Positions 9,605 to 50,550 of a stretch of DNA of 64,000 nucleotides are shown here, one piece after another. A model generated the notes under the pieces. That model saw only the letters and a list, made by a program, of their open reading frames with translations. It searched no databases and had not been told where the DNA came from. Origin of the DNA: Acidobacteriota bacterium (GTDB taxonomy: Bacteria > Acidobacteriota > Vicinamibacteria > Vicinamibacterales > UBA2999); NCBI GenBank assembly GCA_030697165.1, contig JAUYQQ010000022.1, forward strand, positions 186,001-250,000. The letters run 5' to 3'. Positions within the stretch are counted from its first letter, which is position 1; each line of letters starts with the position of its first letter. The translations under genes and the position numbers were made by a program.

Positions 9605-10622
9605 AGGTGAGGCTGAACGCCAGCTCGCCGAGTTTCTCGACGCTGCAGGCCACCCGGTCGCCCGGCTTGAGCCACACCTGTTCGCCCTTGGGCTTGCCGA
9701 AGATCACGCCGTGCGGCGTGCCGGTGAACATGATGTCGCCGGGCTTGATGGTCATCATCCGCGACGCGAAGCTGATCAGCTGCCGGCAGTTGAAGATCAT
9801 GTCGTTGGTGTTCCAGTCCTGCCGCTGTTCGCCGTTGATCCGGCATTCGAGCCGCAGGTTATTGGGATCGCCCACCAGATCACTGGTTACCAGGTGCGGA
9901 CCAAGCGGCGCGAACCCGTCGAAGGTCTTGCCGATCATGAACTGCGACGTGAGGTACTGCAGGTCGCGCGCCGAGAAGTCGTTGCCGGTGCAGTAGCCGG
10001 CCACGTAGTTGAGCGCGTCGGCCTCCGACACGTTGCGGCACTCGCGCCCGAACACGATCACCAGCTCGATCTCGTGGTCGAACTGTTTCGCCGCCGCGGT
10101 GGGCAGCACGATCGTGCCGCCGTGATGGTTCAGCGTGTTGTTGAACTTGTTGAAGAGCGTCGGATTGGCCGGGATGGGCGTGCCGGTTTCGGCGGCATGC
10201 CGCCGGTAGTTGAAGCCCATCATGATGATCTTCTCGGGACGGGTGACGAGCGGCGCATGTTGCACGGCACTCTCCTGGAGATAACGACTGGCCGGACCAT
10301 CGGCCGCCGCCGCCACCAGCGTCGCCAGCATGCCGCCCTTGCCGTTCTGCAGCAGGTCGTCCGTGTCCACCGGCGCCGGCAGCTGGTACCGCGTAGCGGC
10401 CGCTGCCACATCGAGAATGCCCTTCGGCAGCTTCACGCCAAGCCTGGGCCCGGCGGCGGTGCGCAGGTTCAGCAGCGTCATGTTGCGCGGCATTTCAAAA
10501 GCACCCGTTCGCGCCGCTTCGGCCTGCGCTGTCATGGGCGCCGTCGACGCGAGCGTCGCGGTAGTGGCCGAGACCACCCCGGCGGCGGTGGACTTCAAGA
10601 ACGTGCGGCGGTCTGAATACAT
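9603..10622 (-). CDS. Tat-exported fumarylacetoacetate hydrolase-family protein
   Basis: The protein has 339 residues. The N-terminus DRRTFLKSTAAG is a twin-arginine signal, cleaved near TAQAEA, so the enzyme is likely periplasmic, which is unusual for the normally cytosolic FAH family. The catalytic domain (about 110-335) shows IIMMGFNYRRHAAE, the metal-binding E-x-E of DHEIELVIVFGRE near residue 190, NDFSARDLQ, and TGTPHGVIFGKP near the C-terminus, all typical of FAH-type acylpyruvases and related C-C hydrolases and isomerases. The specific substrate is not deducible. The gene stop abuts the heptamer array. Confidence 0.87.
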   Translation of the reverse strand: MYSDRRTFLKSTAAGVVSATTATLASTAPMTAQAEAARTGAFEMPRNMTLLNLRTAAGPRLGVKLPKGILDVAAAATRYQLPAPVDTDDLLQNGKGGMLATLVAAAADGPASRYLQESAVQHAPLVTRPEKIIMMGFNYRRHAAETGTPIPANPTLFNKFNNTLNHHGGTIVLPTAAAKQFDHEIELVIVFGRECRNVSEADALNYVAGYCTGNDFSARDLQYLTSQFMIGKTFDGFAPLGPHLVTSDLVGDPNNLRLECRINGEQRQDWNTNDMIFNCRQLISFASRMMTIKPGDIMFTGTPHGVIFGKPKGEQVWLKPGDRVACSVEKLGELAFSLT

Positions 10623-10699
10623 GTCGTCTCCCTGGGCCTGGCGCCATGGCGGCGGCAGCTGCCGATGGCGGCAATTCTAGTCGAGCGAACCAGGCTTCC

Positions 10700-10867
10700 G
10701 AAGGCTCTTGAGACGCGCCGCAGGTCCTCGAGGATGCGGCCGGTCGCGAGCAGGACCGTGATCCCTCGCCTGCGGGCCAGCGCGATCGCGTCACGCACGG
10801 CGGGATCGAGTCGATCGTCGTGCGCCAGGGTGCCGTCGTAATCGAGCGCCAGCGAGAAGAGCTTCAC
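10700..10867 (-). pseudogene. Truncated HAD-superfamily phosphatase
   Basis: A GTG at 10867 begins a convincing HAD N-terminus: LALDYDGTLAHDD (motif I with both Asp residues), then a helix and TVLLATGRILEDLRRV (motif II region). Similarity stops after about 53 residues. The reading frame continues to 10595 but no longer looks like a HAD protein, and it runs into the FAH-family gene start region. Motifs III and IV with the Lys and the second Asp pair are absent, so the product cannot be an active phosphatase. It lies 9 bp after the winged-helix gene, suggesting that the two once formed an operon. Confidence 0.65.
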
Positions 10868-28801: not shown

Positions 28802-31501
28802 TTGATCACGGTCCTGATCCTTTCGCCATTTGCCGTCGCGCTGATCGCGGGATGGCTCGTCAGCCGCTATCCCCGCACCGCGCCCTTCACGGCGGCCTGG
28901 CCGGCTCTTCTCGCCGTGGCCCTGGCGGCCGAATTTGGCGCAGTCATGGAGACCGCCAGCCGTGTGGTCGAGCTGGCGTGGGCGCCGTCGCTCGGGCTGT
29001 CGCTGTCGTTCCACCTCGACGGTTTGGGGCTGCTGTTCGCGCTGCTGATCACCAGCATCGGGACCCTGGTCATCCTCTACGCCAGCGAGTACCTCGACGG
29101 CCACCCTCAGGCGGGTCGCTTCTATGCGTCGCTGTTCGCCTTCATGGGCGCGATGCTTGGCGTCGCGCTGAGCGACAACATCATCACGTTGTTCGTCTTC
29201 TGGGAGTTGACCGGGTTCACCTCCTTCATGCTCATCGGCTTCGAGCACGAACGGGCCGAGGCGCGATCGGCGGCGTTGCAAGCGTTGATCGTGACGGGCG
29301 CCGGCGGCCTGGCGCTGCTTGGCGCCGGCGTGCTGCTGACGGGGGTGACCGGGACCAGCAGTCTCGCGGCGATGGCCGCGAGCGAGCTGTCCGTCGCGGC
29401 CCATCCGCTCTATGCCGTGATCGCGACGCTGGTGTTGCTTGCCGCCTTCACCAAGTCGGCGCAGGTGCCGTTTCATTTCTGGCTGCCGAACGCGATGGCG
29501 GCGCCGACGCCGGTCAGCGCCTATCTGCACTCGGCCACCATGGTGAAGGCTGGTGTCTACCTGATCGCGCGGATGACGCCGATCCTTGGCGCGACGGCGT
29601 TGTGGACGACGACGGTCACGGCCGTGGGCGCGGCGACCATGCTGCTTGGCGCCTATCGGTCGGTACCGGAGACCGACCTGAAACGCATCCTTGCCTACTC
29701 GACGGTCAGCGCGCTCGGCGTGCTGACCATGCTCCTCGGTGTGGGCACCCGCGAGGCGATCGCGGCCGCGCTCGTCTACCTGGTCGCACATGCCTGCTAC
29801 AAGGGCGCGCTGTTCCTGGTGGCAGGCGCGATCGACCACGAAACCGGTACGCGTGACATCACGGTGTTGGCGGGATTGCGAAAATCGATGCCGCTGACCG
29901 CTATGGCGGGCGGCGCCGCCGCGCTCTCGATGGCCGGTGTGCCGCTGATGCTTGGCTTCGTGGCCAAGGATGGGGCCTACGAAGCGTTGCTTCATGGCGG
30001 GGGCGGGTCGGTGTGGTTGCTGGCACTGACCGTGGCTGCCAGTATTGGCCTTGGCCTGGCCGGACTCGTGGCCGGCGTGCTGCCGTTTCGCGGTGCCGCG
30101 TCGGGCGAGACGGGGCATGAACCGCCGTGGCGGCTGTGGCTGCCGCCGTTCATCCTGGCGCTCGGCGGCGTGATCGCCGGCCTCGCGCCGGGGATCCTGA
30201 ACGCGCCGCTCTCCGCCGCGGCGGGGGCGACCCTGGGGGCGCCGTTCGAACTGTCGCTGGCGGTATGGCACGGCTGGTCGCCGGTCGTGTGGCTCGGTGG
30301 GCTGACGTTGCTCGGCGTGGCTGCCGCCTACGCCTGGCGCGATGGCATTCGTCGCGTCGCGCGGCGGCCGGCCGTCGGCACCGAGGCGCTCTACACCGGG
30401 GCCCTCTCGACCCTGGATGCGGTCAGCCGGGTGATCGGCCCGCTCCTGCATAGCGCCTCGCTGCGATCGTACGTGATGGTGATTGTGGCCACGACCATGG
30501 TCGTCGGGGGGACGGCGCTCGTCGGCGGACCCGGTCTCCACCTGCCGACGGCTCCAACCAGCATCCGCTGGCACGAACTCATCGTGATCGTGGTGATCAT
30601 GACGGGCGCGATCGCGGCCGCGGTCGCGACCTCCACCATGGCGGCGGTCCTCTCACTGGGCGTCGTCGGTTACGGCGTGGCCCTGACGTTCCTGATCTAT
30701 GGCGCTCCCGACCTGGCCATGACGCAGTTCTCGGTCGAGACGCTCACGGTGCTGATCTTCGTGCTGGTGTTCAGGCATTTCAGGAACCTGGATGCGCTGT
30801 CGTCCACGCTGGTCCGCTCCCGCGACGCCGCGATCGCCGCCGGCATCGGCACCTTCGTGGGCGCGATGGTGTTGCTGGTGTCGACGACCGAGACCGCGCC
30901 TGGGCTGCGAGAGTACTTTGTCAGGTTCGCGCCGACGCTCGGCCATGGCCGGAACATCGTGAACGTCATCCTGGTTGACTTCCGTGGGTTCGACACGCTG
31001 GCCGAGATCACGGTGCTGGCCACCGCCGCCATCGGCGTTCGCGCGCTGATGCGGATGTCGGCCGCCGGGCCGGCCGAACCCGAATCGCGTCCGATTCAGT
31101 TTGATACCTCGCCGATCTTCCGCACCGCCGCCCGCCTGCTCATGCCGCTGCTCCTGCTGTTTGCCGTGTTCCTGCTGCTGCGCGGCCACAACGAACCCGG
31201 CGGCGGGTTCGTCGGCGGGTTGGTCGCGGCGGCGGCGTTCGCGCTGTACTTGATCGCCCACGGCGTGGCGCGGGCCCGTCGCGCGCTGCTGGTGCAGCCC
31301 ATGACCCTGCTCGGCGCCGGCTTGCTGATCGCGGCCGTCAGCGGCGTCCCGGCGGCGTTTCGCGGGCAACCCTTCCTGACGGCGCAGTGGCTGCAGGGGC
31401 CCGTGGCGCTTGGCACCCCGGTGATGTTCGACATCGGGGTGTTCCTGGTGGTCGCGGGCGTGGTGTTGATGATGATCTTCGGCCTGGCGGAGGAGTCCTA
31501 G
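28802..31501 (+). CDS. mrpA: Mrp Na+/H+ antiporter subunit A fused to subunit B
   Basis: This 899-residue protein starts at TTG (28802). Residues about 1-740 are the NuoL-like MrpA with many helices, including the conserved [15 protein letters not shown] and [36 protein letters not shown] region, whose Lys and His residues line the proton path. Then come a DUF4040-like segment ([14 protein letters not shown]) and, from about residue 760, an MnhB domain ([12 protein letters not shown]). The A-B fusion defines group-2 Mrp operons. The complex exchanges external H+ for internal Na+ and supports alkaline and salt tolerance. The sigma-54 activator gene ends 4 bp upstream. Confidence 0.93.
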
Positions 31502-31502
31502 G

Positions 31503-31847
31503 TTGGAAGCGCTGCTGGCCATTGCCTCTGGTGTTCTGTATGCCGCCGGCATCTACCTGATGCTGCGCCGCCGCCTGGCGCAGCTGATCATCGGGCTGGG
31601 TTTGCTGTCGAACGGGACCAACCTGCTGATCTTTTCCGCCGGCAGCCTCACGCGGTCCCGGCCGCCCGTCATTCCGGCCGGCGCGGTGGCACTGGCAGAG
31701 CCCTACGCCGATCCCGTTCCGCAAGCACTGGTCCTCACCGCGATTGTGATCGGTTTCGGTTTGCTCGCCTTCCTGCTGGTGCTGGCGCACCGGGTGCATG
31801 CCACCGCGGGGACCGATGACGTGGACGAGGTCGGCCGGACGCCATGA
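31503..31847 (+). CDS. mrpC: Mrp antiporter subunit C
   Basis: A 114-residue NuoK-like protein with three helices, read from a TTG at 31503 one base after the mrpA stop. The conserved segments YLMLRRRLAQLIIGLGLLSNGTNLLIF and PVPQALVLTAIVIGFG are those of MnhC/MrpC. It couples the MrpA and MrpD modules in the membrane complex. Its stop overlaps the mrpD start by 4 bp (ATGA). Confidence 0.92.
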   Translation: MEALLAIASGVLYAAGIYLMLRRRLAQLIIGLGLLSNGTNLLIFSAGSLTRSRPPVIPAGAVALAEPYADPVPQALVLTAIVIGFGLLAFLLVLAHRVHATAGTDDVDEVGRTP

Positions 31848-33325
31848 GGTCGTTGGTCCTCCCAATCGTGGTGCCGTTGGCGACGGCGATTGTCCTGTTG
31901 CTGGCGCCGTCGCGGCCATTGCTGCAGCGATGGCTTGGACTCGCCGGCTCACTCCTGCTGCTCGGCAGCGCGATCGTGCTGTTCCGGCAGGTCGAATCGA
32001 GCGGCATCCAGGTGTTGCAGGTGGGCGGATGGCCGGCGCCGTTCGGCATCACGCTGGTCGCCGATCTGCTGGCGGCCATGCTGGTGGTGGCCGCGGGCAT
32101 CGTGGCCGTCGCGGTCGCCGCCGCGGCCTTCGCCGGCATCGACCCGAGGCGCGAGGCTTTCGGCTATTACCCGCTGGTCCAGGTCCTCCTGATGGGGGTG
32201 TGCGGCGCGTTCCTGACCGGCGACTTCTTCAACTTGTACGTGTGGTTCGAGGTGATGCTGGTCGCGTCGTTCGTGCTGATGTCGCTGCACCGCACCAGCC
32301 CGCAGGTGGAGGCCGCGTTCAAGTACGTCGCGATGAACCTGCTCGCTTCGTCAATCTTCCTCACCGCCCTGGGCCTGCTGTACGGCGCGGCCGGCACGCT
32401 CAACATGGCGGACCTCGCCAGGGTCTGGCCGAGCCTGCGCTCAACGGGAATGGACACGGTACTGGCCGTGCTGTTCGTGATGGCGTTCAGCATCAAGGCC
32501 GGCTTGTTTCCGCTGTTCTTCTGGCTGCCGGCGTCGTATCACGCGCCGCCGGCGGTGGTCGGCGCGTTGTTTGCCGGCCTGCTGACCAAGGTCGGCGTCT
32601 ACGCGCTGATGCGGATCTTCACGCTGTTGTTCCAGGACGGCCCCGAGGGGCTGTTCACGCTGTTGCTGATGATGTCGCTTGCGACCATGGTGATCGGCCT
32701 GGTGGCGGCGCAGCGCGAGCGCGACTTCCGCCGCATTCTCTCGTTCAACCTGGTCGGGCACATCGCGTACACCACCGCCAGCCTTACCGTGCTGACGCCG
32801 GCGGCGCTGGCCGGCGCCATCCTCTACGTGATCCACCACATCGTCGTCATCACCAACCTGTTCCTCGTCGGGGGCGTGATGCTGCGCCTGCGGCGCACCA
32901 CCGAGATGGCGTCGCTCGGCGGGCTGTATCGCGAACATCCGGTGCTGACCGCGTTGGCGTTGGTGCCCATCTTCTCGCTGGCGGGTGTGCCACCCCTGTC
33001 TGGCTTCCTCGGCAAGCTCGCGATCGTGCAAGGCACGTTCGCGGCCGGGGCGTACTGGGTCGGAGGCATGGTGCTGGCGGTCGGACTGCTGACCCTGATC
33101 TCGATGGGACGCGTGTGGGCCGAGGGTTTCTGGGCGCCGGGGCCTGGCACGGCCGACACCACCACGCCGGGCACGCCGCTGCTGTTCGTCATCGGCGGCC
33201 TGAGCGTCGTGACCCTGGCGATGACCTTCTGGGCGGGGCCGTTGTTCGACGTCGCGTTACGGGCGGCGCACCAACTGCTGCAGCGCGATCAGTACATCCG
33301 GGCAGTGCTCGGAGGTGGGGGTTAA
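31844..33325 (+). CDS. mrpD: Mrp antiporter subunit D
   Basis: A 493-residue NuoN/NuoM-like subunit with about 14 helices. Landmarks are LYVWFEVMLVASFVLM with the conserved Glu, FSIKAGLFPLFFWLPASYHAPP with the essential Lys, and a later LLTKVGVYALMRIF segment. MrpD is one of two proton-pumping-type subunits of the complex. It overlaps mrpC by 4 bp and its stop is one base before the chosen mrpE ATG. The length fits the family. Confidence 0.93.
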   Translation: MRSLVLPIVVPLATAIVLLLAPSRPLLQRWLGLAGSLLLLGSAIVLFRQVESSGIQVLQVGGWPAPFGITLVADLLAAMLVVAAGIVAVAVAAAAFAGIDPRREAFGYYPLVQVLLMGVCGAFLTGDFFNLYVWFEVMLVASFVLMSLHRTSPQVEAAFKYVAMNLLASSIFLTALGLLYGAAGTLNMADLARVWPSLRSTGMDTVLAVLFVMAFSIKAGLFPLFFWLPASYHAPPAVVGALFAGLLTKVGVYALMRIFTLLFQDGPEGLFTLLLMMSLATMVIGLVAAQRERDFRRILSFNLVGHIAYTTASLTVLTPAALAGAILYVIHHIVVITNLFLVGGVMLRLRRTTEMASLGGLYREHPVLTALALVPIFSLAGVPPLSGFLGKLAIVQGTFAAGAYWVGGMVLAVGLLTLISMGRVWAEGFWAPGPGTADTTTPGTPLLFVIGGLSVVTLAMTFWAGPLFDVALRAAHQLLQRDQYIRAVLGGGG

Positions 33326-33326
33326 C

Positions 33327-33815
33327 ATGCTGCTCGGCTGCATTCTCCTGGCACTGGCCTGGGCGGCGCTGCAAGGGGAGATCACCCTCGGGAACCTGAT
33401 CACGGGCTACCTCCTGGGCTACGCCATCCTTGCCCTGCTGGCCAAAGGGCGGGTGCTGCCGCCAACCCTGGCGGCGCGGACGAGGCACGCCGCCGGGCTC
33501 GCGGTGTTCTTTGTCCGCGAGCTGGTGGTGGCCAACGTGAAGGTGGCCATCGACGTCCTGCGGCCACACACGGCGATCCGGCCGGCCGTGATCGGGGTCC
33601 CGCTGGATGTGACGAGCGACAACGAGATCCTGCTGCTGTCGATGTTGATCAACATCACGCCGGGCAGCGTCACGATCGATCTGTCAGAGGACCGGCGCAC
33701 GCTGTACGTGCACGTCATGCACATGACCAGCGTCGAGGCCAGCCGGCACGAGATCAAGAGCGGCTTCGAACGGCGCGTCAAGCTGCTGTTCGAACGATCG
33801 CCGGAGGACCCATGA
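33327..33815 (+). CDS. mrpE: Mrp antiporter subunit E
   Basis: The ATG at 33327 comes right after the mrpD stop (GGAGG lies at about 33311) and gives 162 residues. Two or three N-terminal helices precede a soluble tail containing the MnhE hallmarks NEILLLSMLINITPGSVTIDLSED and LYVHVMHM. The subunit is needed for assembly of the Mrp complex. Its 3' end overlaps the mrpF start by 4 bp. Confidence 0.92.
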   Translation: MLLGCILLALAWAALQGEITLGNLITGYLLGYAILALLAKGRVLPPTLAARTRHAAGLAVFFVRELVVANVKVAIDVLRPHTAIRPAVIGVPLDVTSDNEILLLSMLINITPGSVTIDLSEDRRTLYVHVMHMTSVEASRHEIKSGFERRVKLLFERSPEDP

Positions 33816-34078
33816 TTGAGACGGTTGCGCCGCTGGTGCTCACGGCCCTCGGCCTTGCCATCCTGATGACGGTGGCGCGGCTGATCAAGGGGCCATCGCT
33901 CCCCGATCGCGTCGTCGCGATGGACCTGCTGGGAATACTCGTCGTCGGTGTGATCGTGGTCCTCGCCGGTTCGACCGGCGTGCGCGCCACCCTCGATGCG
34001 GCGATCGTCATCGCGCTGATTGGGTTCGTGGCGACCGTGGCCTATGCGACGTACGTGGAGCGAGGGCACCCGGAATGA
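33812..34078 (+). CDS. mrpF: Mrp antiporter subunit F
   Basis: An 88-residue protein with three helices. The conserved cytoplasmic segment RLIKGPSLPDRVVAMDLLG, whose Asp and Arg are characteristic of MnhF/MrpF, lies between helices 1 and 2. The start overlaps mrpE by 4 bp and the stop overlaps mrpG by 4 bp. Confidence 0.92.
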   Translation: MIETVAPLVLTALGLAILMTVARLIKGPSLPDRVVAMDLLGILVVGVIVVLAGSTGVRATLDAAIVIALIGFVATVAYATYVERGHPE

Positions 34079-34467
34079 TCGATCTGCTGACCGCGGCGAT
34101 GTGGCTGCTGGGTGCGTTGTTCGGCCTGCTCGCGGCCCTGGGCCTGTTGCGCATGCCCGACGTGTTCACGCGGATGCAGGCGTCCACGAAAGCGTCAACG
34201 CTCGGCCTGGGCTGCCTGCTGATTGGCGCGGCGCTGCAGTTGGGCGACCTGGCGTCGCTGATCCGCGCCGCCAGCATTGGCGCGTTCATCTTCCTCACCA
34301 ATTCCGTGTCGGCGCATGTGATCGCTCGCGCGTCGTACCTCGCCGAGGTGCCGCTGTGGGAAGGCACCGTGCTCGACGAGCGCCGGGCCGCTGACCAGGC
34401 GGCACACGGCGAGGGGATTACGACCGCACCGGGCGAACCGGCTTCTCAGAACCGGCCATCACGCTAG
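34075..34467 (+). CDS. mrpG: Mrp antiporter subunit G
   Basis: A 130-residue protein with three helices and the PhaG/MnhG signature LGLLRMPDVFTRMQASTKASTLG, followed by a variable hydrophilic C-terminal tail. It completes the six-gene group-2 set (AB fusion, C, D, E, F, G). Its TAG stop overlaps the stop of the convergent hydrolase gene (shared CTAG at 34464-34467), so no terminator separates the two. Confidence 0.92.
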   Translation: MIDLLTAAMWLLGALFGLLAALGLLRMPDVFTRMQASTKASTLGLGCLLIGAALQLGDLASLIRAASIGAFIFLTNSVSAHVIARASYLAEVPLWEGTVLDERRAADQAAHGEGITTAPGEPASQNRPSR

Positions 34468-36307: not shown

Positions 36308-37654
36308 CTGAACGCTTCGCCATCGGACCCATCGCTCTCCCTTCCTGAGGCCTCCGTCGATCGCTGGCTGGCGCCGCTCACGCGGTTCATGCACATTCAG
36401 TCGGCGAGCGGCATCGTGCTGCTGCTCTGTACCGCCGTGGCCCTCACGCTGGCCAACTCCCCGCTGGCGGGGTGGTTTGCCGGCCTGTGGAAGACACCGG
36501 TGTCGCTGGGGCTCGGATCGTTCACGGTGTCCGGGGACGTCGGGCACCTGATCGTCAACGACGGCCTGATGACCCTGTTCTTCTTCGTCGTCGGGCTGGA
36601 GTTGAAACGCGAACTGGTGCACGGAGAACTGCGTGATCCCCGCAAGGCGCTGCTGCCGGTCTTTGCCGCCCTGGGCGGCGTCATGCTGCCGGCCGGCATC
36701 TACCTCGCGCTGCAGTGGGGTGAACCGGGGCAGCGGGGATGGGCGATCCCGATGGCCACCGACATCGCGTTCGTCGTCGGCTTTCTCGCGCTGTTCGGAC
36801 AGCGGGTGCCGCTCGGCTTGAAGATCCTGTTGTTGTCGCTGGCCATCGTCGATGACCTGGTGGCCGTGCTGATCATCGCCTTCGTGTTTACCGAGACGAT
36901 CGCCTGGAGCTGGCTTGGCGCGGCGGCACTCGCGTTTGCCATCATCGTGGCGTTCCAGCGCATCGGCGTCCGCGCGGTGGGTGTCTACGTGGCAGTCGGC
37001 GCGTTCATCTGGCTCGCGTTCCTGCAGTCGGGCGTTCACCCCACGGTCGCGGGGGTGCTGCTCGGCCTGCTGACACCGTCAACAGCCTGGATCGGTGCGC
37101 AGACGCTTGCGGACGTCTTGCAGGCGAGCTGGCAACGCGCAACCGGAAGCGGGGAAGCGCCACACGCGGATCCCGCGGTCGCCGGAACGGCGCGGTTCGC
37201 GGCGCACGAGTCGGTCTCGCCCCTGCACCGTCTCGAACACGGCCTGCATCCCTGGGTGGCGTTTGTGATCATGCCGGTGTTTGCCCTCGCGAACGCCGGC
37301 GTCACGCTCACCCCGTCGAGCCTGGGTGAGCCGGTCGCGGTCGCGGTCGCCGTCGCGCTGGCTGTCGGGAAACCGGTCGGCATTCTCCTGCTCTGCGCGG
37401 TCGCGATTCGCCTGCGCGTGACCGACCTGCCCGAGGGGGTGACCTGGGGCATGCTGGCGGGCGGCGCTTGCCTCGCGGGCATTGGCTTCACCATGGCCCT
37501 GTTCCTCAATACGCTCTCGTTTCCGGTCGGCGAGTTCGCCGCGCTGGAGTCGGCCGGCAAGGTCGGCACTCTCGCCGGGTCGGTGGCCAGCGCGATCATG
37601 GGTGCGGCTATCTTGGCGATCGTCCTGGCCCGACCCGGAAGACCACGCACGTGA
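36308..37654 (+). CDS. nhaA: Na+/H+ antiporter NhaA, apparent CTG start
   Basis: From CTG at 36308 the protein is 448 residues. The first in-frame ATG (36389) would remove the conserved amphipathic helix seen in the family (here VDRWLAPLTRFMHIQS), and no in-frame ATG, GTG or TTG exists upstream. AGGAGG (36296-36301) sits 6 bases before the CTG. Key residues are in place: Asp in MATDIAF and the Asp pair in AIVDDLV, 30 and 31 residues later as in E. coli (Asp133, Asp163, Asp164), and the Lys in VGKPVGI. NhaA exports Na+ or Li+ for two H+. The leader looks regulatory. Confidence 0.92.
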   Translation: MNASPSDPSLSLPEASVDRWLAPLTRFMHIQSASGIVLLLCTAVALTLANSPLAGWFAGLWKTPVSLGLGSFTVSGDVGHLIVNDGLMTLFFFVVGLELKRELVHGELRDPRKALLPVFAALGGVMLPAGIYLALQWGEPGQRGWAIPMATDIAFVVGFLALFGQRVPLGLKILLLSLAIVDDLVAVLIIAFVFTETIAWSWLGAAALAFAIIVAFQRIGVRAVGVYVAVGAFIWLAFLQSGVHPTVAGVLLGLLTPSTAWIGAQTLADVLQASWQRATGSGEAPHADPAVAGTARFAAHESVSPLHRLEHGLHPWVAFVIMPVFALANAGVTLTPSSLGEPVAVAVAVALAVGKPVGILLLCAVAIRLRVTDLPEGVTWGMLAGGACLAGIGFTMALFLNTLSFPVGEFAALESAGKVGTLAGSVASAIMGAAILAIVLARPGRPRT

Positions 37655-45359: not shown

Positions 45360-46628
45360 ATGCAGCCAGCACGTCCGTATCGGCCCAAGGTATCGCGCGA
45401 GACCCGATTACTGCTGACGGCAGCCGCGGTCGCGATCGCCGTGCTGTGGTTGCTGGCGCGGGTCAGGTTCCAGGGCCTGCCCGACGCGCCAAATCCGATC
45501 CCGGCGGTGTTCAGTCAATTGGCGAGCCCGCCGCGCTACGACGATCTCGCCGGGCAGCTCGCGCAGATCCAGTCGCGGGTGCAGCCGTCGCTGCTCGTCC
45601 TCGACGCGCCGGTCCCGGCGCCGCGAAGCGTCGCGATCAAGCTCCGAGACGACTTCGTCGTGTCGCACCTGGCGCCGGCCGCCCCAGCGGGGCCGCGCAA
45701 GGACGCGACCGTGATGGCGCACGATTCCGCGTCGGGCCTGGCCATCGCCAGCTCGATGGCCGCGGCGAGCATGTCGCTGCCGTTGCCGTGGACGCCGCGA
45801 CGTCTTCCGCAGCCGCGCTATTTCTTTGCCACTCGCACGAACGCCGCCGGCGTCTCGCTGTACCCGGTGTTCGTCGGGTCCCTAACCACGATCGAGACGC
45901 CGCTCTGGGCGGAGCCGTTGTGGACGGCGCCGACGGGCACTCCACTCGTGCCGGGCTCGTGGTTGTTTACCACCGACGCGGAACTGGCAGGCCTGGTCGT
46001 GGCCCTCGACGGCGAGGCGATGATCGTGCCGATCGCGCTGGTACTCGCCGAGGCGGAGCGGTTGCTCTCGGCGCCGCCTGGCGCCGGCGGGATTGTCGGT
46101 GTCGAGGTGCAGGCGCTGACGCCACCGATTGCCGCGTTGACCAAGGCAAGCGGCGGCGTCGTGGTGACGGCGGTTGACGCCGCCGGCCCGGGCGAAGGCC
46201 AACTGCGCGTCGGCGACGTGATCGAGTCGGTCGGCGGCGTCCCGTTGCCGACCCTTCGGCATTGGCGCGTGCGGGTGGCCCGCCTGTCGGCGGGCGAGAC
46301 GCTCGGTCTTCGCGTCCGGCGTGGTGGCGAACTGCAGGAGGTCGCGCTGGTCGCAGCGGCGCCCTCGCCAACGCCGGTGAGTCCTCTCCTCGGCCTCGCG
46401 CTTCGGGCGTCGCCCAGGGGCGGCGCGGAAGTGGTGCGAGTCGATCGCGGGTCGGTGGCCGACCGCGCCGGGCTGGCGGTGGGCGACGTGATCACCCTGA
46501 TCGCCAACGTCCAGGCCCCATCGCCCGCCGCGGTGGTGCGCGCCTTCAACCTCACCACCGAAGGCCAGCGCGTGCTGATTGCCGTGACGCGCGGCGACGC
46601 GCATTTCGTGGCGGCCCTCGCGCGATGA
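45360..46628 (+). CDS. Membrane protein with degenerate trypsin-like domain and two PDZ domains
   Basis: The 422-residue protein has one N-terminal helix (LLLTAAAVAIAVLWLLARV, about 17-35). Residues about 60-230 resemble an HtrA-type protease: VQPSLLVLDAP, KDATVMAHDSASGLAI and LVPGSWLFTTDAELAGLVV, the last taking the place of the active-site GNSGGP strand. The nucleophile motif is lost, so it is probably inactive. Two PDZ domains follow: about 245-325 (GEGQLRVGDVIESVGGVPL) and about 335-420 (GSVADRAGLAVGDVITLI). The overlapping antiporter genes downstream suggest a periplasmic sensing or scaffolding role for envelope stress. Confidence 0.75.
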   Translation: MQPARPYRPKVSRETRLLLTAAAVAIAVLWLLARVRFQGLPDAPNPIPAVFSQLASPPRYDDLAGQLAQIQSRVQPSLLVLDAPVPAPRSVAIKLRDDFVVSHLAPAAPAGPRKDATVMAHDSASGLAIASSMAAASMSLPLPWTPRRLPQPRYFFATRTNAAGVSLYPVFVGSLTTIETPLWAEPLWTAPTGTPLVPGSWLFTTDAELAGLVVALDGEAMIVPIALVLAEAERLLSAPPGAGGIVGVEVQALTPPIAALTKASGGVVVTAVDAAGPGEGQLRVGDVIESVGGVPLPTLRHWRVRVARLSAGETLGLRVRRGGELQEVALVAAAPSPTPVSPLLGLALRASPRGGAEVVRVDRGSVADRAGLAVGDVITLIANVQAPSPAAVVRAFNLTTEGQRVLIAVTRGDAHFVAALAR

Positions 46629-47794
46629 GCTACCGATCCGGCGGCGATTCGTTCGACTTGCTCGGCCTCCGCGACTATCCCGAGGACGACCAGCCGGACC
46701 TGCACGAAGAGCCCGGCAGCCCGCCGCCGCAAGGCTGGCGCCAGATCCTGGGGTGGTCGGGCAAGTCCGCGCCGGTCGCGGTCCTGCTGCTGCTCGGCAT
46801 CGGGCTTGGTCCCCGCGGGATCAGCATGCTGTCGCCGTCCATGCCGCTGCTCGATCCGGTGGTGCCGGTCGCGCTTGCGGCGCTCGGCGTCCTGGTTGGC
46901 CTCGGCCTGGGCGACCATCGCCCCGGCGAACGCCGGCTGCTGGCCGCGGCAGGGCTGCATTCGCTGGTCACCATGCTGCTCGTGTCGGGCGGGATCGCCG
47001 CGCTCTCGCTGCTGGCGTGGCCGCTCGAGCCGCGCGCGTTCTGGACCATCGTGGTGGTGGCGGGCATTTGCGCGGCGACGTCGTTGACGCTGCCCTCGGG
47101 CGATCCGCTGGAGCCGCGCCCGCCGGCCGCCCGCATCCAGGAATTCGGCGTGCTGCTCCCGATCGCGATCGGCGGGGTGGCCCTCGCCTGGATCCGCGTG
47201 GGCACCACTCCCGAAACCCTCTTGCTGGTTACGCTGTCGTCGGGCGTCACCGTGATGCTGGCCGCCGCTGCGTGGCTGCTGCTGAGCAAGGCATCGACCG
47301 AGACCGAGGAGCGCGTGTTCGCGGTGTCGGCGCTGCTGCTGGTGGGCGGCGTCGCTGACGCGTTGTCGTTGTCGGCGCTGTTTGGCGGCCTCGTCGCCGG
47401 CGTGTTCTGGCGCATGGCCGGCCGGCAACCGCGCGAGACCATTCGCCGCGATGTACTGTTTGTGCAGCATCCGCTGCTGGTGCTGGTGCTGCTGCTTGCC
47501 GGCGCGCGCGCCGAGCTGTCGCCGGGCGCCTGGGTCCTTGGCGCCGGCTACCTGCTGATCCGGGTCATCGCACAACTGGCCGGCAGCGCGCTGGCCCGGC
47601 GGGTCGCCGGCGCCAACGCGCCCGCCGATCTCGGTGTGCAACTGCTGCCGCCGGGCGTGTTCGGCGTGGCCTTCGCGTTGAACGCGGTCAGCGTGATTGG
47701 CGCCGATGCCTCGGTGGCGCTGGCGGCGGTGGTCGTGGGCACCATCGGCTCGGAACTGGTGGCTGTGGCCATGCGCACGCGGGGGCGCGCGTGA
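46625..47794 (+). CDS. CPA2-like cation/proton antiporter
   Basis: The ATG at 46625 overlaps the stop of the PDZ gene (ATGA), giving 389 residues. A hydrophilic N-terminus of about 45 residues is followed by about 11 helices (for example LGIGLGPRGISMLSPSMP and LFGGLVAGVFWRMAG). It lacks the C-terminal KTN/RCK domain of Kef proteins and the canonical double-Asp pair is not evident, so transport competence is uncertain. It could be the sensing partner of the next antiporter or a heterodimer subunit. The frame remains open upstream inside the PDZ gene, but the ATG with overlap is the natural start. Confidence 0.8.
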   Translation: MSYRSGGDSFDLLGLRDYPEDDQPDLHEEPGSPPPQGWRQILGWSGKSAPVAVLLLLGIGLGPRGISMLSPSMPLLDPVVPVALAALGVLVGLGLGDHRPGERRLLAAAGLHSLVTMLLVSGGIAALSLLAWPLEPRAFWTIVVVAGICAATSLTLPSGDPLEPRPPAARIQEFGVLLPIAIGGVALAWIRVGTTPETLLLVTLSSGVTVMLAAAAWLLLSKASTETEERVFAVSALLLVGGVADALSLSALFGGLVAGVFWRMAGRQPRETIRRDVLFVQHPLLVLVLLLAGARAELSPGAWVLGAGYLLIRVIAQLAGSALARRVAGANAPADLGVQLLPPGVFGVAFALNAVSVIGADASVALAAVVVGTIGSELVAVAMRTRGRA

Positions 47795-50550
47795 AGCCGC
47801 TCTTGGCGCTGGCGCTGGCGATCGCGGCGATGGTCGCGGTGCGCGAACTGGGCGGCGAGCGCACGTCTGTGGCCGCGGCGACCCCGCTGGCCCTTGGCTT
47901 TGCCCTGATGGGCGCGCTCATCACCGGCGAGGCGTTGCGCCGGTTCCAGCTGCCCCGGCTGACCGGCTACCTGCTGTTCGGCGTGATCGTCGGGCCCTAC
48001 GTCAGCAACCTGATCACGGCGCCGATGGCCGCGCAACTGCAGGTGTTCACGGGCATCGCCACGACGTTGATCGCGCTCATTGCCGGCCTGACGTTGAGCG
48101 TCGAGCGGCTCGGCTCGCGCATTGGCGCGATCGTGCGAATGACGCTGACGACGCTGGCCGTGGCCATGGCCGGCCTGGCGGTGGTCGGCTGGCTGGTGTG
48201 GCGGTGGCTGCCGGTCGCGCCCTATGCCTCGGGCGTCGAGCTGCTGGCCATGCTCGCCCTGATGACCGTGATCGTGGTGTCGTTCTCGCCGACGATGACG
48301 GCCGCGGTCGTGGCCGATTCGGGCGCGCGCGGCCGCCTCAGCGACACGGTGCTGGCCATGGTCGTGCTCGCCGACCTGGTGCTGCTGGTCGTGTTCGCCG
48401 TCTCCATGCAGGTGGCGCGCGTCGTCTTTGACGGCGGCGGCTGGCAAGGGGCCGAGATGCTGGCGCGGCTCGCCTGGGAGATTGGCGGTGCGGTCGCATT
48501 CGGTGTCCTGGTCGGCGTCATGTTTGCGCTGTACCTGCGCTACATCGGCCGCGAGATCACGCTGGTGCTGCTGGCGGTCTGCGCCCTGCTCAGCCAGGTG
48601 GGCACGACCCAGCAACTGCAGCCGCTGCTGGCGGCGGTGGCCGCCGGCATCGTGATCGAGAACCTGGCGGTGGCGCAGGGCGACACGTTGCGCGCGGCAG
48701 TGCGCCGCGGCGCGCCGCCGGTGCTGGTGGTGTTCTTTGTCGCGGTCGGCGCCTCGCTGCGCCTCGACGCGCTCTCGGCGATCGGCCTGGCGGCGGTCGC
48801 GCTGTCGGTGGTGCGAATCGGCTTTATCCGCATCGGCGCCAACGTCGGCGCGAAGGTCTCGGGTTTGCCAGACCCCATCCGCAAGTACGCCTGGACCGGG
48901 TTGGTGTCGCAGGCGGGCATCACGCTGGGCTTCGCGGCGGTGATTGCCGCCGAGTTCCCGGGCTGGGGCCATCAACTGCAGTTGCTGCTGGTCGGTTCGA
49001 TCGCCATCCACGAGCTGATCGGGCCGCTGCTGTTCCGGCGCGGCCTGACCAAGGCCGGCGAACTCGACGCCCACTCGCCGCGGCCCCTGGTGGTGGTCTC
49101 GAATCGCGAGCCGTACATCCACAACCAGGCGGCCGACGGCAGCGTGACGGTCAGCGCCGCGACCGGCGGCGTGGCGGTGGCCCTTGACGCGTTGATGCGC
49201 GAGCGCGGCGGCGTGTGGATTGCCCATGGCGGGGGCTCGGCCGATCGGCAGGTCGTGGACGCGTCCGACAAGGTCGCGGTCCCGCCGGAGAATCCCTCGT
49301 ACACGCTGCGCCGCTTGTGGCTCGAGGAGCCGACGTTCTCGCAGTATTACGGCGGGTTCGCGAACGAAGGCCTGTGGCCGCTCTGCCACGTCGTGGACGT
49401 GCGGCCGAAGTTCCGCAGCGAGGACTGGGAGGCCTACCAGGACATCAACACGCGGTTTGCCAAGGCGATCGATTCGGAACTCGGGGCCACGGAATCGCCG
49501 GTGTTCATCCAGGACTATCACCTGGCACTGGTCGCGCCGGCGTTGCGGCAGTTGCGGCCCGAGACCCGGACGGCGCTGTTCTGGCACATCCCGTGGCCGT
49601 ATCCGGATCGGCTGCGGATTTGCCCCTGGCGGCGCGAGCTGGTGGCGGGGCTGCTGGCCAACGATCTGCTGGCGTTCCAGGTCGAGCGCGACCGCCGCAA
49701 TTTCCTGCTGGCTGCCGAGGAAGAGCTCGACGCCGAAGTGGAGCTCGAATCGTCGCGCGTGCGGCTGAACGGGCGCACCACGACGGTGGTGTCGGTGCCG
49801 ATCGGCGTGGACTACGACCGCATCCAGGGCTTCGCGGCCGACGCTGCGCTGGCGAAAGAGCAGGAGCGACTGATCGAACTACTCGGCTTGCGCGCCGAGA
49901 TCATCGGCCTTGGCGTGGACCGGCTCGACTACACGAAGGGCATTCCCGAGCGGTTGAGCGCGATCGACGCGTTGATGGCCCAGCGGCCCGACTTGCGCGG
50001 CCGCGTCACGTTCGTGCAGATCGGCGTGCCGTCACGCTCGGATCTCGACAGCTACGCGGCGATCGAAACCGAGATCGGCGAGCGGATCGCCGAGCTCAAT
50101 GCCCGGTATGCCATGCCCGGCCGCCCGCCGGTGGTGACGTACTACACCACGCCGCTCGGCGCCTTCAGCCTGGTGGCGCTCTACCGCCTCGCGCACTTCT
50201 GCATCGTCAGCTCGCTGCACGACGGCATGAACCTGGTCGCGAAGGAATTCGTCGCGGCGCGAGACGACGAGCAGGGCGTGCTGGTATTGAGCGCGCTGGC
50301 GGGCGCGGCGCAGGAACTCGAAGACGCGGTGATCATCAATCCGTACGACGTCACCGCGTTCGCCGCCGCGCTGCAACAGGCCATCGAGATGGCGCCCGAC
50401 GAACAGGCGCGCCGCATGCACACCATGCGCAAGATCGTCGCCGGCCGCAACGTCTTCAACTGGGCCTCCGACATTCTCGAAGGCCTGGAAAGCATCTGGA
50501 CCAAGCCGCTGCTGTACTCAGTGCGCGGGTGGGAAGACACGTCGGTGTAG
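47791..50550 (+). CDS. Fusion of a CPA2-like antiporter and trehalose-6-phosphate synthase
   Basis: A single 919-residue frame from GTG (47791, overlapping the previous stop) joins two complete domains. Residues about 1-420 form a 12-13-helix antiporter with SFSPTMTAAVVAD and a core Asp near 195 (VLADLVLL). Residues about 431-919 are an OtsA-type glycosyltransferase (489 residues; E. coli OtsA has 474) with all expected sites: SNRE, YYGGFANEGLWP, IQDYHL, WHIPWPYP, GVDRLDYTKGIPERL and the DGMNLVAKE block. It should couple cytoplasmic trehalose-6-phosphate synthesis from UDP-glucose and glucose-6-phosphate to ion flux or osmotic state. No trehalose phosphatase gene is in view. Confidence 0.93.
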   Translation: MKPLLALALAIAAMVAVRELGGERTSVAAATPLALGFALMGALITGEALRRFQLPRLTGYLLFGVIVGPYVSNLITAPMAAQLQVFTGIATTLIALIAGLTLSVERLGSRIGAIVRMTLTTLAVAMAGLAVVGWLVWRWLPVAPYASGVELLAMLALMTVIVVSFSPTMTAAVVADSGARGRLSDTVLAMVVLADLVLLVVFAVSMQVARVVFDGGGWQGAEMLARLAWEIGGAVAFGVLVGVMFALYLRYIGREITLVLLAVCALLSQVGTTQQLQPLLAAVAAGIVIENLAVAQGDTLRAAVRRGAPPVLVVFFVAVGASLRLDALSAIGLAAVALSVVRIGFIRIGANVGAKVSGLPDPIRKYAWTGLVSQAGITLGFAAVIAAEFPGWGHQLQLLLVGSIAIHELIGPLLFRRGLTKAGELDAHSPRPLVVVSNREPYIHNQAADGSVTVSAATGGVAVALDALMRERGGVWIAHGGGSADRQVVDASDKVAVPPENPSYTLRRLWLEEPTFSQYYGGFANEGLWPLCHVVDVRPKFRSEDWEAYQDINTRFAKAIDSELGATESPVFIQDYHLALVAPALRQLRPETRTALFWHIPWPYPDRLRICPWRRELVAGLLANDLLAFQVERDRRNFLLAAEEELDAEVELESSRVRLNGRTTTVVSVPIGVDYDRIQGFAADAALAKEQERLIELLGLRAEIIGLGVDRLDYTKGIPERLSAIDALMAQRPDLRGRVTFVQIGVPSRSDLDSYAAIETEIGERIAELNARYAMPGRPPVVTYYTTPLGAFSLVALYRLAHFCIVSSLHDGMNLVAKEFVAARDDEQGVLVLSALAGAAQELEDAVIINPYDVTAFAAALQQAIEMAPDEQARRMHTMRKIVAGRNVFNWASDILEGLESIWTKPLLYSVRGWEDTSV

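Follow-up and report, generated by a model that had tools for sequence, protein, structure and literature searches.

Does an ion antiporter that appears to run in one frame into a trehalose-6-phosphate synthase (OtsA) exist as a single conserved protein, and if so, what could the joining of the two be for? The question is raised by the frame at 47791-50550 on the forward strand of the window, by which we mean the whole 64,000-nucleotide stretch analysed here, from contig JAUYQQ010000022.1 of an Acidobacteriota bacterium (assembly GCA_030697165.1). The frame has 919 open codons and a GTG start that overlaps the stop of the upstream gene, UP389, by 4 bases. Pfam recognised Na_H_Exchanger at residues 43-414 (E 5e-25) and Glyco_transf_20 at 433-900 (E 5e-110), both above curated cut-offs, confirming the continuous antiporter-OtsA frame that an initial annotation had read from the bare letters. 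In an AlphaFold model of the fusion (47 sequences; mean predicted local distance difference test score, pLDDT, 82.9), the final membrane helix stops at residue 421 and the first OtsA strand starts at 433, so that the 11-residue linker given in that annotation was right; all the OtsA motifs it named are present as well. The protein comprises a cation/proton antiporter (CPA) half (residues 1-421, 47791-49053), a link (residues 422-432, 49054-49086) and an OtsA-like domain of family GT20 (residues 433-900, 49087-50490).

The initial annotation had held that two complete halves in frame exclude a stop-codon error. This argument fails alone, and it was the recurrence of the same domain order in related genomes, proposed there as a check, that settled the matter. 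The full fusion, in a single frame without internal stops, occurs in 23 genomes of a set of 99 to which the window's own belongs, at 47-100% identity. A class sample of 193 genomes yielded 28 fusions, these 23 among them (27 are complete; G159 ends at a contig end). The 28 genomes, from 24 genera and 6 families, all belong to the order of the window, which is Vicinamibacterales going by named records; no fusion was seen outside this order among the listed matches of the class sample. In an even sample of the phylum, 9 of 297 genomes matched across the junction, all again from the same order. A C-terminal part reaching a contig end (G026) and a decayed remnant (G091) were not counted as fusions. 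The spread is patchy, with the fusion present in 2 of the 9 genomes of the window's own genus. With the same junction in 28 genomes and in named records, and nothing found in favour of an assembly or sequencing error that removed a stop codon, such an error is excluded by recurrence. The annotation would also have taken halves encoded as separate genes in homologues as a sign of error; some relatives do encode them separately, and these represent the unfused state of the same gene families, not an assembly error.

A scan of named genomes identified 18 fusions and one remnant (L077) among the best 80 of 457 related stretches. Many of these records are the same genomes as in the samples above, and the counts overlap. 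The fusion records are metagenome-assembled genomes titled Acidobacteria, Vicinamibacteria, Vicinamibacterales or Vicinamibacteraceae, with one titled 'Acidimicrobiia' (L083), which pairs with a genome of the window's own family (G021). Among these best 80, no fusion outside Acidobacteriota was supported; Acidobacteria- and Vicinamibacteria-titled records L090-L101 carry a standalone OtsA, and the records from L102 onward gave no match to the antiporter. Two candidate junction-crossing matches, L108 and L129, were rejected as GT20 proteins with a different N-terminal part (L129 also by Pfam). GT20 proteins with an N-terminal part of at least about 260 residues, many of them about 750 residues long, occur in L102-L150 (for example L129:5383-7632), in Burkholderiales, Geobacter and others. 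In the one protein tested, that of L129, Pfam did not recognise the N-terminal part, and in L139 gene calling found no GT20 gene.

Purifying selection acts on both halves. Over six pairs, the ratio of non-synonymous to synonymous substitution rates (dN/dS) ranged from 0.11 to 0.16 in the antiporter part and from 0.08 to 0.11 in the OtsA part, at dS values of up to ~1. In the window's genome the fusion is the sole GT20 gene. Two stretches, L069 (G091) and L077, hold a decayed fusion copy, of which only parts matching residues 303-534 and 850-919 remain, at 74% identity. The sets compared below hold 27 of the 28 fusions, the neighbourhood in G063 being left out; L069 was dropped from them, and L043 has a run of N near its end. 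Rows in which the antiporter or OtsA spanned 350 residues or fewer, or UP389 300 or fewer (hence the partial UP389 of L160), were excluded.

The membrane half scored 88.6 bits against PF00999 (cut-off 26.2), which places it in the CPA superfamily, and has 14 membrane helices by our own count on the AlphaFold model. Among the listed rows of a structural comparison it matched NHA2 (Z 33.7, 390 residues aligned, root-mean-square deviation 4.0) and NapA (Z 31.4, 371 aligned, 3.9), its closest solved folds there, at 15-18% sequence identity. The CPA2 subfamily model TIGR00932 gave no match to the window protein up to E 0.001, and relatives L048 and L062 scored 42.1 and 61.6 bits, below its cut-off of 238.3. 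Neither the antiporter half nor UP389 gave a match when its sequence was searched against the PDB. In a MAFFT alignment, Asp195 (48373-48375) falls opposite KefC Asp156, described as corresponding to the primary ion-binding acid of NapA (PMC11150392), and Arg342 (48814-48816), a basic position, falls opposite KefC Lys307. Since a profile comparison with KefC aligned only 79 columns, the Asp195 match rests on the MAFFT alignment and the fold. All 15 unfused antiporters retain Asp195, as do 23 of the 27 fused ones; the four losses all fall in one family, f10, where 4 of 5 fusions carry Gln or Glu instead. Sequence and fold together point to a CPA-type cation/proton antiporter, which may carry Na+ or K+.

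The second half scored 368.8 bits against PF00982 (cut-off 32.5), which assigns it to GT20. Its closest solved relative by sequence is OtsA of M. thermoresistibile (5jij, E 2.6e-81); structural matches to solved OtsA chains reach Z 43.8, and 31% of residues are identical to E. coli OtsA across 477 alignment columns. Six acceptor and donor residues of the M. thermoresistibile enzyme whose roles have been described (PMC6879718), Arg18, Tyr90, Asp144, Arg286, Arg324 and Asp385, correspond to R439, Y520, D575, R711, R749 and D811 (by eye from the alignment), and all six are invariant in 22 fusions. Gln146 of that enzyme is replaced by H577, as it is by His in E. coli OtsA. The best NCBIfam match of this half, NF011071 (bifunctional OtsA-OtsB family), lies below cut-off. 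Identity as a glucosylglycerol-phosphate synthase was considered and rejected, because that model scored 281.4 bits (cut-off 569), well below the OtsA model at 412.4, and because a trehalose-type phosphatase adjoins the fusion in part of the loci. Of the 25 fusions whose downstream sequence is available, 7 are followed directly, on the same strand, by this phosphatase gene; it is truncated in one case and 690 bases distant in another, and Pfam was used to check 5 of the 7. The window's genome has a single Trehalose_PPase (PF02358) gene, located away from the fusion. Further links to trehalose metabolism lie past UP389 in L046, where the next genes are TreY and TreZ, above TIGR cut-offs, and in L047, where a TreY/TreZ-like pair was recognised by eye. 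Judged from its residues and context, the most likely activity of the GT20 half is trehalose-6-phosphate synthesis.

If the fusion merely fixed a 1:1 ratio of two uncoupled activities on one chain, the chain might be cut or OtsA might be started internally at the junction. In-frame GTG, ATG or TTG codons do occur near the junction in 24 of 27 fusions. Against this, no more than 4 of 27 show a Shine-Dalgarno-like motif ahead of such a codon, and the remaining 3 fusions lack any start codon near the junction. An internal translation start for OtsA was rejected as not conserved across the 27 fusions, and co-expression without coupling appears highly improbable.

The fusion does not stand alone. 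It is the last gene of a conserved trio, preceded by UP389 (46625-47794, forward strand) and by a gene for an HtrA-like protein (45360-46628, forward strand) with two PDZ domains (Pfam PDZ_2 and PDZ_6) and no Pfam protease domain. All 26 fusions whose upstream sequence is available have UP389 as their immediate neighbour there, and in 24 of them the two genes overlap by 4 bases; the PDZ gene is next upstream of UP389 in 20 of the 24 fusions whose sequence reaches that far. The PDZ protein has partial NCBIfam DegP/HtrA matches far under cut-off. The window's UP389 has no Pfam match, nor has the UP389 orthologue of MGR_bin29 (L091, L154); an orthologue from a family outside the order passes Na_H_Exchanger narrowly (27.1 against 26.2). 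An AlphaFold model of UP389 (pLDDT 80.7) matched NapA (4bwz) by Foldseek at E 1.5e-6, in addition to other CPA structures, and an hhalign alignment of the UP389 and antiporter profiles spanned 323 columns (E 9e-7, probability 91). These data identify UP389 as a second CPA-fold membrane protein. Unfused loci were taken from 15 of the 20 genomes with an unfused antiporter of 45-52% identity (G029, G056, G066, G084 and G110 were left out). One of the 15, L067, is cut before UP389; the remaining 14 all show the trio without OtsA, two of them from a family outside the order. The trio is more widespread without OtsA than fused to it. In the f10 loci L048-L051 the PDZ protein is cut to 254-276 residues, seemingly without its PDZ repeats: its match ends at or before residue 224 of the window protein, whose PDZ domains begin at 247. 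We know of no description of a three-gene system with two different antiporter-fold proteins, although no separate search for one was made.

The two CPA partners can be compared at their ion sites. In the hhalign alignment, the second residue of an aspartate pair in UP389 falls at the position of Asp195; in the window's UP389 the pair reads Gly-Val. In unfused trios with both genes, antiporter and UP389 alike carry the Asp (14 of 14). Of the 24 scorable fused loci, 17 carry it in only one of the two proteins and none is devoid of it: UP389 is without the second Asp in 14, the antiporter is without it in 3, and both retain it in 7. (L159, with a gap at the site, and L160 and L161, with no UP389 row, were left out of this count.) The 3 are f10 loci with both genes, and in each of them the UP389 pair is kept. 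This suggests that the fused half need not itself transport, f10 having mostly lost Asp195 while UP389 retains its pair.

How might antiporter and synthase work together? Among the first ten loops of the membrane half, positive residues number 1 to 3 in each predicted inner loop and 0 to 2 in each outer one, the later loops being less clear; together with the known topology of KefC, this lends weak support to a cytosol-facing OtsA half. As the simplest functional reading we propose, with a probability of about 0.5, that the fusion is a CPA antiporter bearing on its C-terminus a cytosolic OtsA, likely part of a heteromer with UP389 and the PDZ protein, in which ion exchange is coupled to trehalose synthesis. 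OtsA would occupy the position that the regulatory RCK domain has in KefC. Through the short link of fixed length, the conformational or ionic state of the antiporter could set OtsA activity, or, in the reverse direction, the ligand state of OtsA could set transport. Under osmotic or salt stress the protein would then act as a swap device, matching cation export to trehalose synthesis. The initial annotation had read the protein as tethering compatible-solute synthesis to the membrane, perhaps with direct control of OtsA by ionic or osmotic state. This is upheld in part: the fusion is genuine and conserved and would place the synthase domain on the cytosolic antiporter face, and control of OtsA by ions is only one of the two possible directions.

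Several observations weigh against this proposal. At least 9 of the 28 fused genomes carry extra GT20 genes (G001, G038, G040, G054, G058, G078, G137, G156, G157), so the fusion is not the sole source of the enzyme there, and a trehalose-phosphatase gene directly following on the same strand is lacking in 18 of 25 fusions. The GT20 half misses the NCBIfam OtsA equivalog cut-off (TIGR02400, 412.4 against 564.85 bits), as do the fusion in L048 and the standalone GT20 proteins of L061 and L070; substrate specificity consequently rests on active-site residues and gene context. The loss of Asp195 in 4 of 27 fusions, all in f10, means that not every fused half needs to transport. Among the 14 UP389 proteins scored without the second Asp, 5 retain the first, and one of these has Glu as the second. 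The aspartate pattern needs only about three changes on the tree and an independent-pair test has two pairs, so that it cannot be tested statistically and is a pattern rather than a proof. Finally, at a pTM (predicted template-modelling score) of 0.61 the model does not fix the mutual orientation of the antiporter and OtsA halves.

Another explanation competes with coupling: the antiporter might just hold OtsA at the membrane, perhaps in the vicinity of OtsB or of a trehalose exporter, with neither activity affecting the other. The f10 fusions speak for it, as their membrane half is without Asp195 in 4 of 5 while the OtsA residues are invariant, so that an anchor alone might suffice; moreover, OtsA generally does without an ion partner in most bacteria. 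On the other side, a 14-helix antiporter is unnecessary for anchoring, and its ion-binding Asp is kept in 23 of 27 fusions. Where that Asp is lost, UP389 keeps its pair in the three f10 loci. The length of the link, moreover, differs by at most one residue among 22 aligned fusions. We therefore regard a membrane tether as possible, if rather doubtful.

KefC also offers a precedent for a different arrangement, in which OtsA would serve as the ligand sensor of the antiporter. Its C-terminal cytosolic domain is described as binding adenosine monophosphate (AMP) and glutathione (GSH) and directly inhibiting transport (PMC11150392). By analogy, binding of glucose-6-phosphate, uridine or adenosine diphosphate glucose (UDP-/ADP-glucose) or trehalose-6-phosphate might open or close the antiporter, catalysis being a second function. 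OtsA is reported to close upon substrate binding (PMC6879718), and the extra GT20 genes of some fused genomes would free the fused one for another role. However, the invariant active-site residues and the status of the fusion as sole GT20 gene in the window's genome argue that enzyme activity is selected, which makes a mainly sensory OtsA unlikely.

Returning to coupled exchange and synthesis, the aspartate pattern allows a more specific version, which we put forward as speculation. The antiporter may consist of two CPA subunits, the fused one and UP389, and once OtsA was captured a single ion site may have been enough. The fused subunit would have kept its site in one lineage and the partner in the other, and the silenced subunit would act as a sensor turning ion movement into control of trehalose synthesis, in effect an ion-gated osmolyte synthase.

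The unfused relatives give some indication of how the fusion arose. Standalone OtsA proteins share ~60-67% identity and standalone antiporters 45-52% with the respective halves, and G047 and G059 carry both a fused and an unfused copy. In MGR_bin29 (L091 and L154 being one genome), a standalone OtsA lies next to the trio in divergent orientation; in L055, OtsA is divergent from a PDZ fragment at a contig end. Starting from such an arrangement, losing one stop codon could not have made the fusion; OtsA would have needed to be relocated behind the antiporter. The nearest standalone OtsA often adjoins iron-sulphur assembly genes, and the same kind of gene lies beside 7 of 14 unfused trios (by eye). 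Trees of both halves set the f10 fusions apart from the main clade, and a clade of all fusions appeared in 0% and 10% of 200 bootstrap trees. Constraining all fusions together was not rejected by the approximately unbiased (AU) test (p 0.129 for the antiporter, 0.37 for OtsA; the second OtsA tree omits one distant GT20 row from L045 and one from L059). The fusion may thus have arisen once or twice.

Iron-sulphur-like genes (cysteine desulfurase, IscA-type, Rrf2-type; by eye) are often found beside standalone OtsA (L052-L054, L056-L061), unfused trios (L062-L064, L066, L154, L164, L165) and f10 fusions (L048-L051); the IscA-type gene in L060 was confirmed by Pfam. The region around the fusion in the window is rich in cation/proton antiporters, with a Mrp-type Na+/H+ antiporter operon at 28802-34467 and NhaA at 36389-37654, 10-19 kb upstream of the fusion (three of the Mrp genes and NhaA were assigned by Pfam, the small subunits by eye). 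At 10595-10867 on the reverse strand, a 90-residue frame matches only the first 53 positions of HAD hydrolase_3 and is perhaps a truncated gene.

A search of the titles and abstract beginnings of open-access papers, a scope that takes in neither subscription papers nor preprints, found no description of the antiporter-OtsA architecture. One paper on a fungal secretome (PMC9505667) contains both Pfam names, and its title and the beginning of its abstract do not present this architecture. KefC shares with the fusion the order of a CPA antiporter followed by a cytosolic C-terminal Rossmann-type domain, as well as Asp156 at the place of Asp195. It differs in that its RCK domain is a non-catalytic AMP/GSH-binding regulator whereas the fusion has a complete GT20 enzyme, in having 13 helices against the 14 counted here, and in the residue before the Asp, which is Gln in KefC and Ala in the fusion. 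Human NHA2 (SLC9B2) is described as having 14 helices and an Asp278-Arg432 pair (PMC12072577), so that it shares with the membrane half, by our count, the extra helix, and an Asp-Arg pair. Unlike the fusion, NHA2 and NapA have no enzyme domain; NHA2-type Na+/H+ exchangers are described as homodimers (PMC12072577), whereas the fusion has an adjacent second CPA gene wherever sequence is available. The GT20 half has the fold and active-site residues of OtsA (5jij; E. coli 1gz5) and, in part of the loci, an OtsB neighbour. Described OtsA enzymes are dimers or tetramers (PMC6879718), whereas the fused OtsA lies under the NCBIfam cut-off and has no free N-terminus. Bifunctional OtsA-OtsB proteins, trehalose-6-phosphate synthase/phosphatases (TPS/TPP), likewise join GT20 to another domain; in the fusion the partner is an ion antiporter and lies N-terminal to GT20. 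To our knowledge, the OtsA proteins described so far are soluble.

Trehalose is a sugar that protects cells from salt and drying, and under salt stress ions that have been taken up are later replaced by compatible solutes. In E. coli, potassium glutamate is reportedly replaced by trehalose, as Dinnbier is said to have found in 1988. GgpS, a sugar-phosphate synthase, is described as activated by ions and as responding to their free concentration in a cyanobacterium, where K+ is exported and replaced by glucosylglycerol (PMC4390839). In the fusion, one conserved protein combines the fold of an ion exchanger with the enzyme that opens the trehalose pathway, which would make a direct link between ion gradient and sugar synthesis, in either direction and over a few nanometres, testable on purified material. 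It also draws attention to the three-gene system and its two distinct antiporter-fold proteins. If the proposed coupling is true, one molecule may control both the ion balance of these bacteria and the synthesis of their protectant, trehalose.

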